Assembly (NCBI GenBank): GCA_034687125.1
Contig: JAQGBZ010000138.1
Span: forward strand, 62,001 to 126,000
Reading direction: 5' to 3'
DNA from: Neelides folsomi
Taxonomy: Eukaryota; Arthropoda; Collembola; Neelipleona; Neelidae
DNA: 64,000 nucleotides
Part shown: piece by piece, positions 1,031 through 51,544 of the stretch
How the letters are laid out: each line of letters begins with the position of its first letter
Position numbering within the stretch: position 1 is the first letter of the stretch
Position numbers and translations under genes: made by a program
Notes under the pieces: model-generated
Databases searched by the model: none
What the model was told of the DNA's origin: nothing
The model's input: the letters and a program-made list of their open reading frames with translations, nothing else

Positions 1031-1267
1031 CGCATTTGCCGGGATATTTGACGGTGATATTTCTCGCCAAACTGCAGGCCTGTCGATCCAGTTCACATCG
1101 ATTACGGTAGTATCGACCATCTGACCCGCAGACTGGCTGAGACTCGTCACTATCCCCAAAGTTCGGACAAGACGCCGGGCACTCACACGTGGCATACTGA
1201 CCGTCCCGGGATGAAACGCAGCGGGAGCCGAAGAGGCACGCCTTGTCAGCACATGGGTTCGGAGTAT
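1031..1267 (-). CDS. agrn: Agrin, exon for second follistatin/Kazal domain
   Basis: Internal exon of 237 bp, with acceptor CACAG at 1272-1268 and donor GTAATA at 1030-1025. It enters and leaves in phase 1. The translation holds ten cysteines in the follistatin-domain pattern: a FOLN half (NPCADKACLFGSRC...CECPASC) followed by a Kazal half (QPVCGSDGRYYRNRCEL...QACSLARNITVKYPGKCG). The VCGSDGxxYxNxCEL signature is typical of agrin-type Kazal repeats, which sit in the extracellular part of this heparan sulfate proteoglycan and resemble protease inhibitors. One N-glycosylation sequon (NIT) is present. The first codon is completed by one base from the upstream exon: G+AT gives Asp when joined to Kazal 1, and T+AT gives Tyr when joined to the membrane-anchor exon at 22328. 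Other follistatin-repeat proteins share the fold; the agrin assignment rests on the NtA exon upstream on the same strand. Confidence 0.92.
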
Positions 1268-4200
1268 CTGTGAAGAGAAATTGAGAGGATTAAAAACACG
1301 AAAGCCATTCTGGGCTCGAATTAAAGACGCCTCACGCCATCGACGTGGAAATATCTTCCTAATGGCCTACCTGCTGGGAATAGGTAACACGAGAGTGTGG
1401 CGACTACATCAAACCCAAGAACCACTGCGATCACCAAAGTTAGTGAAATCACTTTCTTACCACCCATTCTCAAATTAATTCCCTAGCCTCATTCGCTCCT
1501 TCCTTAATTAATAGTCCTTCTCAACGAGAGAGTTTATTCTTTCTTAAACTCCGTGCGAACCACTGTCGAGTAATTGCTTGTACTCAAACGCTAACTCGAG
1601 GTCAACGGTCGTGCTGATTCGAACTAAAGCTTATCTGGAGAAGATGAAATACGAGGGGGCGTCGTTTACAAGGAGATATTATGAGAAATGAATAGGTGGA
1701 GGGCGAGGCAGGTGAAAGTCCCGAGGAGCAAAAGACTCTGTGATGGGTAGAGAAGAAGCTGTGAAGGAGAAATGGTTCCTAAATCCACTGGCAGCTTTCA
1801 AGCCCGGACGAAAATTGCGAGTGGTGTTGAAAACATTAGGACAGTTAAAAGCAACACGCTTGCCTACTCACTCTCTTTACTCGATCCTCTTCATGAAGAG
1901 GAAGAAGAAAGCATTACATTTGTTCCATTAAGAACCGCCTTAGCCCCTGGAACTCTTTCCGCTCCTTTGCCAACTTGCAAAAAGTCGTTTGTATAATCTA
2001 ATCTACAAAATTTCGGCAATCCCTCTCTCCCTCCCGTCCCCACGTTCTCATTTCCCTGTCCCATTTTTGAGCTCCTTCTCTCTATTTCCCATTTCTGAAG
2101 TTCCCTCGACGCCTCCTCATTAAATCCCTTTCTTTGTCTCCAACAGGGACACTCCCTTTTGTTTAATTGCTAATCAGAAGGAAGACTTTATTTATTAAAT
2201 TCTCTCTCAAAGAGAGAAGACAAGATTTCCGAGGAAGGATGAGTATGTATGCAGGAACATCAATAATAGATTACTTTCCCTGGGAGATTTCCCCTTGTCT
2301 TGTTGCTGCACTGCATGTGAAGACTCAGCTACCATCATCATCATCATCACCTTTTCCGCATCATATAACATTTTCCATCCAGCTAACACATACTTTCAGA
2401 CTAACATTCAACATCATTTCCGTCTCTCTATGAGCGAAACTCTAAATACGTGTTCATAATGGGACAAAAATTCTTTATATTATGTTAAATATGGGTTTAA
2501 ACCCAAATGTATACTTTTTGTAAGAAAAAAGTTCTCTTATGTAAATACCCATGTATTAAGTATATCCAAATATGAATATGAAGCTCTTTCTTGTAAGCAC
2601 TCCATGAAGAAAAGTGAATTTGGGGATATGACCCATTCAGATTTTCCCATTTATAAGAAAAGTATGTTAAAGCAAAAAGTAGTTAATGACTTTTCCATTT
2701 ACAAACCAAAGCCTTCATTTGACTCTCCCACAATTACTCGATTAATGTTTTCTGTTTAAGGAGTTCCGCTGGCTCAGGCGAGTATTAAATTCCGGACAAA
2801 TCACTCCCTCGCCCCCTTTCTGGATTAGACATCTGAGAATGATAAATATATGAGAGAAATATGTTTCCTCCCATTACAACTTAACTCCTTTTTCTAAACC
2901 ATTTCAGAACATGAGGCCCGGAATGAAAAATGAGTGAAAGTCTGAGGCAGGTGAGGGTTCTTTCTTTGAGAATGAATAGTAAATGGGTCAATAATGCCAA
3001 TGGCACGGTAGAGAAAGAAGCCGCTGAACAGTATCGATTCATTAATCTCTTGGGCGGCTAACTTCCAAGATATGTATACAAAAACGAAGTCATAGACCAT
3101 TACATTGTTTGTTGGTCAGGACGCTGATGGGGAGTTGTGAGGAAACCGACGGTTTCCTTTTTATTCCTCGAGTGACTATCAGATTTTATGAGTAGTCATA
3201 GCGTGACATTCTGTTCCCCAATTCCCTTGTCGCTCTTGCTTCTTGATACAACGACAATATACGTATTAGTTCATACCATACATTGGCGATATGATTCTAA
3301 CGCTATAAGAAAAACTACCTATTTGAACATTGGTCGAAAACCTTCATGTTAAAAATTTGTTTCTATCTTTTTTCACCACATATGTTTGTCCAATGGTAAT
3401 TCGATATTTGTATTTTTTGGCGAAAAGAAAGAAAAGAATCCAGGACTCTAACTGTCATAAACATTTGGCCGTATATTTTATCAGCGGGCCATTTCTGGAT
3501 CCTACTATGAACTGTGGTTTCTTGAAAGAGGGAAAAAAGACAAAAAACTGACTTTCTCCTTCCTTTGTGTGTGCATTCGTTTTTCGCTCGAGTTCATTTG
3601 GGGGCATACAGATAGAATATGGATAAATATATTTTTCCTTATTTCATTTGCAGCGAAAAGATTTGAAGTAAGTACGTTTGAACTTGCATTTCCCATTTTA
3701 CCATCTGCTCAGCTTCCAGTATATTTATAAGGCCTATCTTTTGGAAAATAATGGATTTTATAAATACGGAATTCTTTTCAATCGGAAATTTGCATTTCTC
3801 CCCTCTACACCCGATTTATTCATATTGATTTCCCCCTTTTCAAATTTAATCTACTGCTATATATTGATTTCATTCTTGAACGGGTTTTCAATCTTTATAT
3901 ACAAATATATTCACTTTCCCATTCTCCCCCATGTCGAAAAATAAGAAATATGTTACTCTGTTATCGAATTTTCTCTCTATAACTCATCCTAACAATATTT
4001 CCGGTATGCAATTCTTCGTTTTTATAATATTAAGAACATACATAAATAAATTATTAAATAATAAACATAAATAGTGAATGGGCATCAATATTGGTAAAAG
4101 TATATCATTCGACGATTGTTTTTTATTGCATTAATATCTACTCTAGTATATTAATATGCTATTTGGTTCTTCTATTTTGAAATGTAAAATTCTCTAATGT

Positions 4201-7200: not shown

Positions 7201-7410
7201 CGCATTCGCCGGAGTGCTTAATCCGGATGGACTTTTGATTCTGACACGCGTACATTCGAAGGAGGCACTCATTTGAATAAGTGATTTCATCATTTCCGCA
7301 GACGGGACTGTAATTTGAGGAACAAACCTCAGGACATCGGCAGACGCTCCTTCCGTTCTCAACGTAGCATGTAGCTCCGAAGGCACAATATGTCTGTTCG
7401 CACGGCTCTT
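7201..7410 (-). CDS. agrn: Agrin, exon for first follistatin/Kazal domain
   Basis: Internal exon of 210 bp (70 codons), with acceptor ATTTCAG ending at 7411 and donor GTTAGT at 7200-7195, phase 1 on both sides. The ten cysteines form one complete follistatin unit: FOLN half EPCEQTYCAFGATCY...VCRCPEVC, then Kazal half SPVCGNDEITYSNECLLRMYAC...HSGECG. It has one possible N-glycosylation sequon (NYS). Joined to the NtA exon (last base G), the first codon is G+AA = Glu and the frame stays open. This puts the domain directly behind NtA, the order seen in vertebrate agrin. Joined to the alternative exon ending at 22328 (last base T), it would start with T+AA, a stop. It would be secreted and extracellular. 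Confidence 0.93.
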
Positions 7411-17945: not shown

Positions 17946-18368
17946 TATATATTCCTTCGGTCAAAAACTCCGTGCATTTTTGAATGAAAATAACGGTTTT
18001 ATAGAATTTCGAAGTTTATTCACGAATTATATAATCCCCATTGAGTCGAATACATTCTTCCCACCTCCATTTAAGTTCCCTGATACCTTTTCTATAAAAA
18101 TTCCTATCTAAAGAGTCAAAGTAAGCTATCACTGATTCTTTGACCTCTTCTTCACTTTTGAACACCTTTCCCCTAAGATGACGTTTTAATGGATTAAATA
18201 AATAGTAATCATTGGGAGCCAAATCAGGGCTATTAGGAGGATGAGCCAATTCGTGAAATTTAAAGCTATTAGTTTGTTTTTAACAGGAAGGGCCTTATGA
18301 GGAGTGGCATTATCGTGGAGGAATAGGTGCTCCTTCAAAAGCCGAGTTTTTGACCGAAGGAATATATA
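17946..18368 (-). mobile_element. Internally deleted mariner element with transposase C-terminus
   Basis: A perfect 25-bp inverted repeat (TATATATTCCTTCGGTCAAA plus AACTC) bounds 423 bp. On the minus strand the interior encodes only the C-terminal part of a mariner transposase. FLHDNATPHKA (around 18330-18290), the second catalytic Asp block, lies in one frame. After a single-base frameshift near 18253-18260 the frame continues as HPPNSPDLAPNDYYLF, the third Asp block of the DD34D triad, and on to a stop at 18016. The DNA-binding half and the first Asp are missing; the left-over coding part sits next to the 5' terminal repeat. It is non-autonomous and broken. Confidence 0.93.
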
Positions 18369-20569: not shown

Positions 20570-22327
20570 TTTGCGACTGCGACCTGCGACACGAGAATAA
20601 TTCAAAATTTTAGGTTTTTAAATATAACATGAGAATAAAATCTCTTTATAGTTAAATTCGAGAAAATTCCTCAATGGTATGGCGCATGAAACGAAGAACA
20701 TTAATAATCCAAGATGTCAAAACACATGGATATAATATGTATAATGTATCTATATTTATAGTGCCTCTTAGATTTCAAATGAAAACATTCCGAGAAAAAA
20801 ATAATTTCACAAAAATATTAAATATCATTCTTTAGAAGGATAGTAAATTCGGAACGAAGAGCAATATCCAAAATTGAAAAAAGCATCGGGGGCGAGACAT
20901 GATAATATAAAATATAATAAGGTTTCTGAAGAAGAGAAAAAGGTAAGTATTAGTTTCGTGCTCTCCTGTCATATTCATTCACAGTCGAATCGTTTCATTT
21001 CATACGAACTCACTTCAGTAAATGGAATCTCGAGATGGGGGTTGGATTTGATTTTCCGAAGACCTTGGATTCCTTTAGGTCATCATCTCATATCAGCCTC
21101 ACCCTCTCGAGAACTCAAGAGAGGCGAGAAAAGTTATACATTCCTTTTGATTCATTGCCTTGCTCGATGTCAGGTTTTATTGTAAGGACGCTGGGCCGAG
21201 AGAAGAGCAGCAAGGACCAGAAATGAGTTCAAATGTCGCGAGAAATTCAAAAAGCTAATATAAGTGAACCAACACCAAATCAAATAATTTATGGGCCAGA
21301 CCACTTTCAAGCCTTCAAAAACTATAACCAGTAGAGGAGTTGAAGCTTTTAAAATTCTCCTAAATTCTTCCCTTTTACTTGAACACGAGAACTAAATGAA
21401 ATTTCTCACCCTCCCCATTTATTATTATGAAAAGATAATATTTCTCAATAGATAAAAAGCCGGGAGGCAGAACATCCCGCTCCGCCACACTTCTCATTAC
21501 ACAGAGATCCGATGTCTCCGCGTCTCTTCCTTCATCCACGAGCTTTTCATTTATTATGCAATGACCCCTTCTTTCGTGGGCATTGTAGGGGTCGGGAAAA
21601 GAATTAAGGTATTCTTCTAAATAAATAAATTAATGGAAGTGTCATCGAATTTCCTGAATCTTCTCAATTCTATTTTCTCCTCTTCGTGCTCGATATTGGG
21701 AATTGTGAACACCTAAAGGCTCTCGGCAATTCCTTTGGTCCTTTATCCTTTCCCAAGTTGAAAAACGAAAAAACCTTTTTCTCAACAAACTCCTTTTTCG
21801 CCTTTTAAAGTTGAGACTCTCTGATATGGCTTGCATTCGAATGGCCATTCAACTCCCCCTCAATTTCAAGCTCACAGATGAGGAGAAGGGCTATTTGCTC
21901 ACAAAGAATTGTCAACTGCTACACATCCAGTATCAGATCTAGTGTGAGACTTCTTCCTCGCCCAATTCCTTCTGACATTGAGAAAGGAAGACCCAATGGA
22001 GTCTCAATATGGAAGAGGCTAACGGACCATTGAATTGCGATGGGAAGTGACCGATAAAAGCATTCAAGCCGAGTTTAAGGGGGAAGCGGAAAGTTTTGTA
22101 AAGTTTGGCTCAACAAGGCCGTGCCTTACCTTCAGCAAGAGGACTCCGACTTTTGGGAACATCTGAAAGAGATAAAAAGTGAAGAAGAAAATCTTGTTAG
22201 TAATTCCTACTCAATCACCTTTCGCTCGGTGACGAGAAAGAGAAAGTTTGGCAAAATGATAATTTGTAAATCATTAATTTGTCAATTAAGCGATAAATAA
22301 ATGAGAGAAAAGGAAGCTGTTGCTTAC

Positions 22328-23084
22328 ATCTAAAATAGATGAGAGCCCCCGAAAACGAGAGAAAGATAATGAGAAGAACGACGACGAGAAGGAGGAGAAG
22401 TGGAAGTCGACAGTGAAGCCACAAAGAGCGAAAATAGGATTCCCTTATTCCCCCATCACTCAAATCTCCACCAGGGGCAGGTCCATCATTCCGACTCCCT
22501 CGATCCTCGTTCGCCAGATTTGAACAACACAGCCGATTGTTGATGCCACTTTCTTCTTCTTTTAAAAGGTTCTGGGGATGTCCTTGCTCGAACGTCTCAG
22601 AACTGAACTTTTCTTGGATTTGTCGCACAACTTGGCTTTGATTCAGTGACAAGTTATTCCCAACTATTCCATAGGCGCTCGCAGAGTGAAAGTTCTTTTG
22701 CTGTTGGTGTTGGGCCGGAACATATTGGGGCGGAAGAGGCCCGTTGTTTCCATTATGATTAATATTGTGGTTTCCGATGTTCGGCGGCTGACGGAGGTTA
22801 TGAAGGAGCGTGGAATTTCCGGTCGCCGGCTGCCTCCTGTTATGAACCCCATTTAAGGTCGAGGCTGGGTAGGACCATTCGGGGTCTTCAAAATTGTACG
22901 AGTCATATGTCTCGTACTTGACGTGGGTGTGTTGTCGTTGCTCATTTCCATGCGACTTATTCAACGATCCATAGGCGTTGTTGGGATGCTGGGCAACGGC
23001 CGGGACTTCATGACGGTGGTTGTGAACTGGAAGGGTGTTATTTCCGTATGAGTATGAGTTGTAGACGAGGTTTGGATGCTCCAT
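22328..23084 (-). CDS. Putative alternative N-terminal exon of agrin: type II membrane anchor
   Basis: Open frame of 252 codons plus one base, from an ATG with good context (GTGATGG) and an in-frame TGA 8 codons upstream, to a donor GTAAGC at 22327-22322. Residues 1-226 have no signal peptide. They are rich in Asn, His, Gln and Tyr, with a Tyr cluster (VKYETYDSYNFED, 55-67) and a PPQY motif (118-121) of the kind bound by WW domains. Residues 227-251 are one continuous hydrophobic helix (LPLLLLLVVVLLIIFLSFSG then ALIYF). The flanking charge (Arg/His before it) predicts an N-in, type II topology. The exon ends in phase 1, one residue after the helix. Same strand, position between the NtA exon and the Kazal exons, and matching phase suggest a TM-agrin-like isoform; this link is inference. 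A possible acceptor (CTTCTTCAG ending at 23154) means a 5' non-coding exon may precede it. A short out-of-frame upstream ATG overlaps the leader. It could instead be a separate membrane protein with unseen 3' exons. Confidence 0.7.
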
Positions 23085-50931: not shown

Positions 50932-51544
50932 CTGGAAAGAATCCGGTCCTGGGTGAGTTGAGCTCTTTCAAGTTGTCGAGAGTGAGAGGGAGCGGGTTAG
51001 AGGCCAGGAGAAGACCACCGTCAGTATCAACATTCAACATGAATATCTTCGTATCCCGAACTCGGACACGACTCTTGCACAACTTTTGACTTCCTTGCCC
51101 AAAGCCATCGATTTGAATGAGAGTGCTCTCAAGGCCCCGGTCTCCTTTAATTACTCTTTTGACGCGGACGCGGGCGGCGAATCTCTCTCCGCTTTTTGCA
51201 CCAAGACTATCATGTTTGTATCCATCAATGTCTGTGTCGGCCTTGGTGCTCAAAATGCCCTGTGTGGGGTGGAAGTAGATCACAGAGTCGACGACGCCTG
51301 TGAGGACCATGCGAGCTTTGTCCTTTGCTGAACTGATGGTTTCAGACAGTTCAGAGCATGACCGCTTCATTACTCGTCTCCTACTTTTATATGTTCCTTC
51401 CCTCTCACCATTGCCAGAGCTGGGATTTATGGTTCCACTGGACGTCGATTGAACAAAAATAGGGAAAATCCCGAATAGTAAAAATATAAAGAAGAGAGTT
51501 CGTCGTCGAACAGCACCACTCTCACTTCGATCCTTCAATCTCAT
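50932..51544 (-). CDS. agrn: Agrin, N-terminal exon: signal peptide and NtA (laminin-binding) domain
   Basis: ATG at 51544, open for 204 codons plus one base to a donor GTAGGC at 50931-50926 (phase 1). Residues 1-15 are charged. Residues 17-31 (LFFIFLLFGIFPIFV) form a secretory signal core, with likely cleavage near QS/TSSG. Residues 38-62 form a polar, basic linker. Residues 63-197 match the agrin N-terminal NtA domain, a TIMP-like OB fold that binds the laminin coiled coil. Landmarks: Cys63, ARMVLTGVVDSVI, FAARVRVKRVIKGD, LIQIDGFGQ, LCKSRVRVRDTKIFMLN (Cys156, the likely disulfide partner of Cys63) and LPLTLDNLKEL. Between the first two strands is an insertion of roughly 25 residues (about 92-118) compared with the vertebrate domain as I know it. 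Splicing to 7410 gives Glu at the junction and leads directly into the first follistatin/Kazal unit. Product: secreted basement-membrane heparan sulfate proteoglycan. Confidence 0.92.

Follow-up and report, generated by a model that had tools for sequence, protein, structure and literature searches.

A candidate membrane-anchoring first exon in a springtail agrin gene and its predicted counterparts across arthropods

We analyzed a 64,000-nt window of the Neelides folsomi genome (assembly GCA_034687125.1, contig JAQGBZ010000138.1, positions 62,001 to 126,000), the minus strand of which holds the 5′ end of an agrin gene, whose later follistatin (FS), laminin-EGF and laminin-G exons lie outside the window. 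All features described below are on this minus strand. The gene opens with an NtA first exon (50932..51544), i.e., a hydrophobic start followed by an NtA domain (PF03146, E 1e-10), with a phase-1 donor (CCAG|GTAGGC). Two follistatin/Kazal exons, FS1 (7201..7410) and FS2 (1031..1267), both have phase-1 acceptors and start with AA and AT, respectively. The NtA exon was the only NtA match in the whole genome, and comparing it with solved structures returned no match at E 0.001. Kazal and laminin-G matches were obtained on the minus strand of the contig, while laminin-EGF domains were recognized by eye only. Overall, the locus combines the features of an agrin: NtA at one start, and an array of FS/Kazal, laminin-EGF and laminin-G domains on one strand. 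Based on the FS region and among the best 120 of 955 matches, the closest agrins were those of other springtails, with identities of 62% for Orchesella dallaii, 60% for Allacma fusca and 45% for Folsomia candida.

Three candidate N-termini can be proposed for this gene: NtA, membrane-anchored, and short secreted. The last would derive from a signal-peptide-like alternative first exon (1371..1467) that ends in SCYLFPA and has a phase-1 donor. It joins FS2 across a 103-nt intron (junction codon GAT, reading ...CYLFPADTPNPC), and would give a secreted agrin lacking both NtA and FS1. To place these starts among relatives, we used 156 distinct proteins, combining the best 120 of 955 agrin matches with the best 120 of 615 from an annelid-agrin search. 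These are mostly gene predictions, and several are Kazal-rich without resembling agrin (P0005, P0032, P0071, P0121, P0122, P0131, P0132 and others). Starts of the SP-CYLFP type occurred in 12 of the 156, from insects, spiders, a mite, an annelid and gastropods. The CYxFP-type gastropod and annelid entries P0142, P0147 and P0120 carry a long extra sequence ahead of the signal-like helix, which could mean that the start was wrongly chosen or that these are a further membrane form. Separately, the intron between the membrane-anchoring exon described below and FS1 contains fragments resembling a mariner-type transposase (HPPNSPDLAPNDYYLF, 18016-18368).

The candidate membrane-anchoring exon (22328..23084) lies on the agrin strand and between the NtA and FS1 exons (51544-50932 and 7410-7201), in the same intron, as originally predicted. 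It consists of exactly 252 codons plus one base and ends in a phase-1 donor (AGAT|GTAAGC). Its single transmembrane (TM) helix, LPLLLLLVVVLLIIFLSFSGALIYF, occupies residues 227-251 (22332..22406) at the very end of the exon, and was identified through both hydropathy and a helix profile: the top 19-residue hydropathy window, starting at residue 231, scored 3.06, compared to a best window of -0.72 within the first 40 residues. Judged by hydropathy, the exon product has no signal peptide, and a Pfam scan found no NtA domain in it. The 226 residues ahead of the helix form a long cytoplasm-like tail, with a PPQY motif at residues 118-121 (22722..22733) and 11 tyrosines. In each of these respects, i.e., length, donor phase, a lone 25-residue helix at the exon end, and tail composition, the sequence agreed with the original prediction.

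We then evaluated whether this frame behaves as coding sequence. Stop to stop, it spans 297 codons and runs to 22215, compared to a longest ORF of 239 codons (mean 132) in 60 first-order simulated 64-kb windows. The codon-type log-odds of the exon was +0.114, versus -0.265 ± 0.086 (maximum -0.031) for 169 intronic segments, each taken in the best of three frames, and dropped to -0.284 for the read-through past the donor. Since 2 of the 12 training exons were read in the wrong frame, and since one antisense frame, interrupted by 8 stops, outscored the sense frame (+0.199), these log-odds indicate an exon-like composition rather than a specific frame. No second copy of the exon was found in the 75-Mb genome (840 contigs).

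The original prediction further held that this exon joins a Kazal exon, and this part had to be revised. Because the exon ends in T in phase 1 and FS1 begins with AA, a direct join to FS1 reads TAA, and we rejected it. The likely partner is instead a 33-nt microexon (22130..22162; acceptor TTTTTATCTCTTTCAG, donor AAG|GTAAGG) located 165 nt downstream of the TM exon. The microexon mends the frame, with TAT at entry and GAA at exit, and encodes the linker VPKSRSPLAE flanked by split codons for Y and E. The product then reads Y-VPKSRSPLAE-E into EPCEQTYC of FS1, and the joined frame of TM exon, microexon, FS1 and FS2 is open throughout.

This microexon was identified in a scan of the 14.9-kb stretch between the TM exon and FS1 for phase-1 mini-exons whose two joins both stay in an open frame. 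Ranked by splice sites alone, it came top of 10 candidates. At tight thresholds (at least 13 of 15 acceptor pyrimidines and at least 8 of 9 donor positions), which were chosen after seeing the microexon, it was the sole candidate in the window on both strands, and 1 of 300 simulated introns contained such a candidate. A first mini-exon scan that required KPR or similar residues, as in insect linkers, had found none; the open translation of the intron includes four KPR-like peptides, none with a fitting splice pair. The microexon peptide played no part in the ranking, yet matches the common arthropod linker in place and length. Specifically, 31 of the 33 retrieved proteins fitting a linker pattern (8-13 residues allowed) have an 11-residue linker, which is also the length given by the microexon. 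A termite linker (MTYKPRPPIIE) has the same length, and a spider linker (YVPQAKKSSTAE) resembles the microexon peptide. The residues of the microexon linker differ from those of most insects, and linkers are longer in many Hymenoptera and weevils.

A direct join of the TM exon to FS2 or to a later FS exon would yield a membrane agrin lacking FS1 as well as the linker. The TM exon to FS2 join is open (TAT), and in relatives the third type of first exon does join FS2, but this route leaves both the strong-site microexon and the linker length of the family unexplained, and the TM forms inspected in other arthropods follow the order helix, linker, FS1. We therefore consider it improbable. The NtA exon, for its part, can be followed in an open frame by FS1 (GAA) as well as by the microexon (GAT), and since the Folsomia NtA-type entry P0002 reaches FS1 without the 11-residue linker, use of the microexon may be confined to the TM form in springtails. 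For that form, skipping the microexon into FS1 creates a stop at the junction, so that a full-length product keeping FS1 would need the microexon.

Next, we evaluated the homology of the helix and linker to predicted TM-agrins of other arthropods. A search of the 75-Mb genome (E ≤ 10) with the TM, linker and FS1 segment of a termite agrin returned only two matches, both with modest E values: FS1 (E 0.015) and the TM exon (E 0.039, 40% identity). A helix profile built from 19 arthropod TM-agrin segments ranked this ORF first of 875 ORFs scored across 104 kb of the contig, at 22.1 bits and with the next ORF at 6.2. Including the linker, the exon scored 24.9, and none of 2000 helix shuffles reached this value (maximum 18.8). 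A protein search with the TM exon and the first 10 residues of FS1 matched none of 1119 candidates at E ≤ 10; because it missed insect TM-agrins as well, this search says little about springtails. None of the four springtail entries (P0001-P0004) has a TM start; each of them represents a cluster, and two, P0003 and P0004, start only at FS1 or within it. Overall, these comparisons support homology of the helix and linker with those of predicted arthropod TM-agrins. The central claim of the original prediction, i.e., an alternative first exon leading to a type II membrane-anchored agrin, is thereby supported by homology as well as by layout. At the sequence level, the exon shows the features of TM-agrin: an N-terminal helix without signal peptide or NtA, a start between the NtA exon and the FS array, and open joins to FS2.

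The same evidence weighs on the possibility that the ORF has nothing to do with agrin and belongs to another gene, single-exon or nested, that ends at 22215 or at the TAA created by FS1. Such a gene would account for a frame that continues to 22215, for the TAA of the direct FS1 join, and for the lack of detected sequence relatives of the tail, but the read-through beyond the donor scores as intron, the helix and juxtamembrane residues match TM-agrins, and the donor and microexon suit an agrin linker, which makes this reading very improbable. Least credible is a decayed and unused exon left open by chance: its 297 open codons exceed the 239 of the longest simulated frame, its composition is exon-like, and the donor, microexon and reading frame are intact.

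The codon split at the junction provides a further view of this arrangement. We identified 93 rows matching a junction pattern, many of which fell inside an FS repeat and were set aside by eye. Among TM rows with the pattern on the linker, the split-codon residue was Tyr in 34, His in one and Asn in one, and it was Asp in 12 NtA-type rows. Decapods, outside the pattern, have Asn or His before VPYE. In the springtail gene, the split codon is TAT for the TM exon and would be GAT for an NtA exon spliced to the microexon. Tyr, His, Asn and Asp are all encoded by NAY codons, which fits first exons with different last bases meeting one shared acceptor exon that begins with AT or AC, as the springtail microexon does. 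Exceptions were observed among NtA-type rows (His in P0025, Tyr in P0033, Asn in P0010 and P0016, Leu in P0007), in a mite TM row (Ser, P0155) and in spiralian NtA forms (Gly, P0096 and P0143). In Helicoverpa armigera, an NtA form (P0098, ...VKD) and a TM form (P0099, ...NNY) share an identical sequence over the first 379 of the 1780 residues that follow the junction. The NtA-form chain 8s9p has Asp at the same place ahead of its linker, which leans towards an ancestral rather than a convergent origin of the membrane form beyond arthropods. In the vertebrate TM form, this residue is Tyr.

We next examined how widespread type II starts are. Counting as TM those proteins in which a helix lies just ahead of FS1 and is itself preceded by a cytoplasmic part, and leaving out the CYxFP type, 66 of the 156 retrieved proteins had a type II start. 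Going by their species names, these came from 12 arthropod groups: Hymenoptera (26), Coleoptera (9), Decapoda (9), Lepidoptera (8), Hemiptera (3), Ephemeroptera (3), Xiphosura (2), mites (2, labelled Acari), and one each of Blattodea, Stomatopoda, Scorpiones and Araneae. A looser earlier class had called 57 of 120 proteins TM, one of them (P0076) being of the third type, while the stricter class missed a soft tick TM form (P0154) spotted by eye. Among 19 entries from named spiralians, none was classed as TM, in a set where several sequences are incomplete, all are cluster representatives, and the CYxFP type falls outside the class. The predicted secreted/membrane switch is thus supported, but it is not special to this lineage; it appears, from these sequences, to be common to arthropods. 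Likewise, an intracellular part of about 226 residues, which the original prediction set against the short one of vertebrates, is indeed found here, but long tails are usual among the retrieved insects and crustaceans: tails range from 68 to 476 residues in insects, from 148 to 191 in crustaceans, and from 284 to 288 in the two mites, while they are 28-30 residues long in the four entries from horseshoe crabs, a scorpion and a spider (overall range 28-476).

Compared to the 66 arthropod tails, the springtail tail showed no significant match (best E 0.08). The motif [AS]YG[VI], usually as SYGVY or AYGVY, was detected in 46 of 50 insect tails (0.88 expected from shuffles), which are not independent since 26 are from Hymenoptera, and in none of 16 non-insect tails. 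The springtail tail contains it once, as AYGI (22665..22676; shuffle probability 0.008), and lacks the second tyrosine of YGVY (AYGIV). PPxY was found in 12 of 66 tails (4.1 expected from shuffles), 8 of these from Lepidoptera and with the motif in varying places, and its presence in the springtail tail has a shuffle probability of 0.05; PPQY is not generally conserved. We therefore rejected PPxY as a conserved tail signal, and the suggested signalling through WW-domain partners is only weakly backed. As [AS]YG[VI] is better conserved than PPxY, motif conservation favours a tail acting through tyrosine motifs rather than through WW-domain partners.

In vertebrates, as described in two earlier studies, an alternative start replaces NtA and gives a type II membrane protein (PMC2874008, PMC1939731); this membrane form predominates in brain (PMC2874008), and its intracellular region is short according to a figure legend (PMC2874008). 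The springtail gene resembles this system in family, in the NtA-replacing start and in the predicted type II product, but differs in having 226 intracellular residues and a linker on a separate microexon; the length of the intracellular region sets it apart from the vertebrate variant, but not from arthropod TM-agrins. The nearest likeness is to insect, crustacean and chelicerate agrins, which share the helix, mostly a Tyr split codon, often an 11-residue linker, and FS1, many of them with long tails, while their tails do not match that of the springtail significantly and vary in the presence and place of PPxY. Database records list these TM-type arthropod entries as "agrin" or "agrin isoform X", or else as hypothetical proteins. 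C. elegans AGR-1 has a signal sequence, no NtA and seven FS domains, and 5′ RACE reportedly detected a single isoform and no membrane form (PMC1939731). AGR-1 resembles the third springtail start, with a signal peptide and neither NtA nor FS1, and the two starts may correspond. Agrin was not found in two Drosophila species (PMC2874008). This study, the closest found on agrin evolution, covers NtA and other domains of invertebrate agrins and, in its passages on these, describes no membrane form outside vertebrates. Among the titles and abstract openings of the agrin papers surveyed, no arthropod membrane agrin is named.

Given these results, it is highly probable that this agrin gene has alternative starts, and that the one located in the NtA-FS1 intron leads to a type II membrane protein through a microexon-encoded linker. 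Transcription would begin inside that intron, and the microexon would be included in the transcript. The resulting protein would consist of 226 cytoplasmic residues, one uncleaved signal-anchor helix, and an 11-residue linker mostly from the 33-nt microexon, with the follistatin, laminin-EGF and laminin-G domains forming the extracellular part. Such an agrin would be pericellular, staying attached to its own cell instead of entering the basal lamina via NtA, and its tail would be open to cytoplasmic partners, most plausibly through tyrosine motifs. More speculatively, the springtail microexon could act as a gate, with inclusion giving the full receptor and skipping giving a junction stop and a short membrane stub, and arthropod TM-agrin could be a surface proteoglycan receptor whose intracellular part carries a conserved tyrosine motif (Y-G-V/I, in insects mostly within SYGVY); we regard this extension as unlikely.

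A choice between secreted and membrane agrin has been described for vertebrates, and the sequences compared here point to the same kind of choice, at one split codon, across arthropods. If TM-agrin is as widespread among arthropods as these predicted proteins suggest, the membrane form would be at least as old as arthropods. The long tails, with their conserved tyrosine motif in insects, would make a cytoplasmic function of agrin testable in insects that carry the gene, such as beetles and bees.
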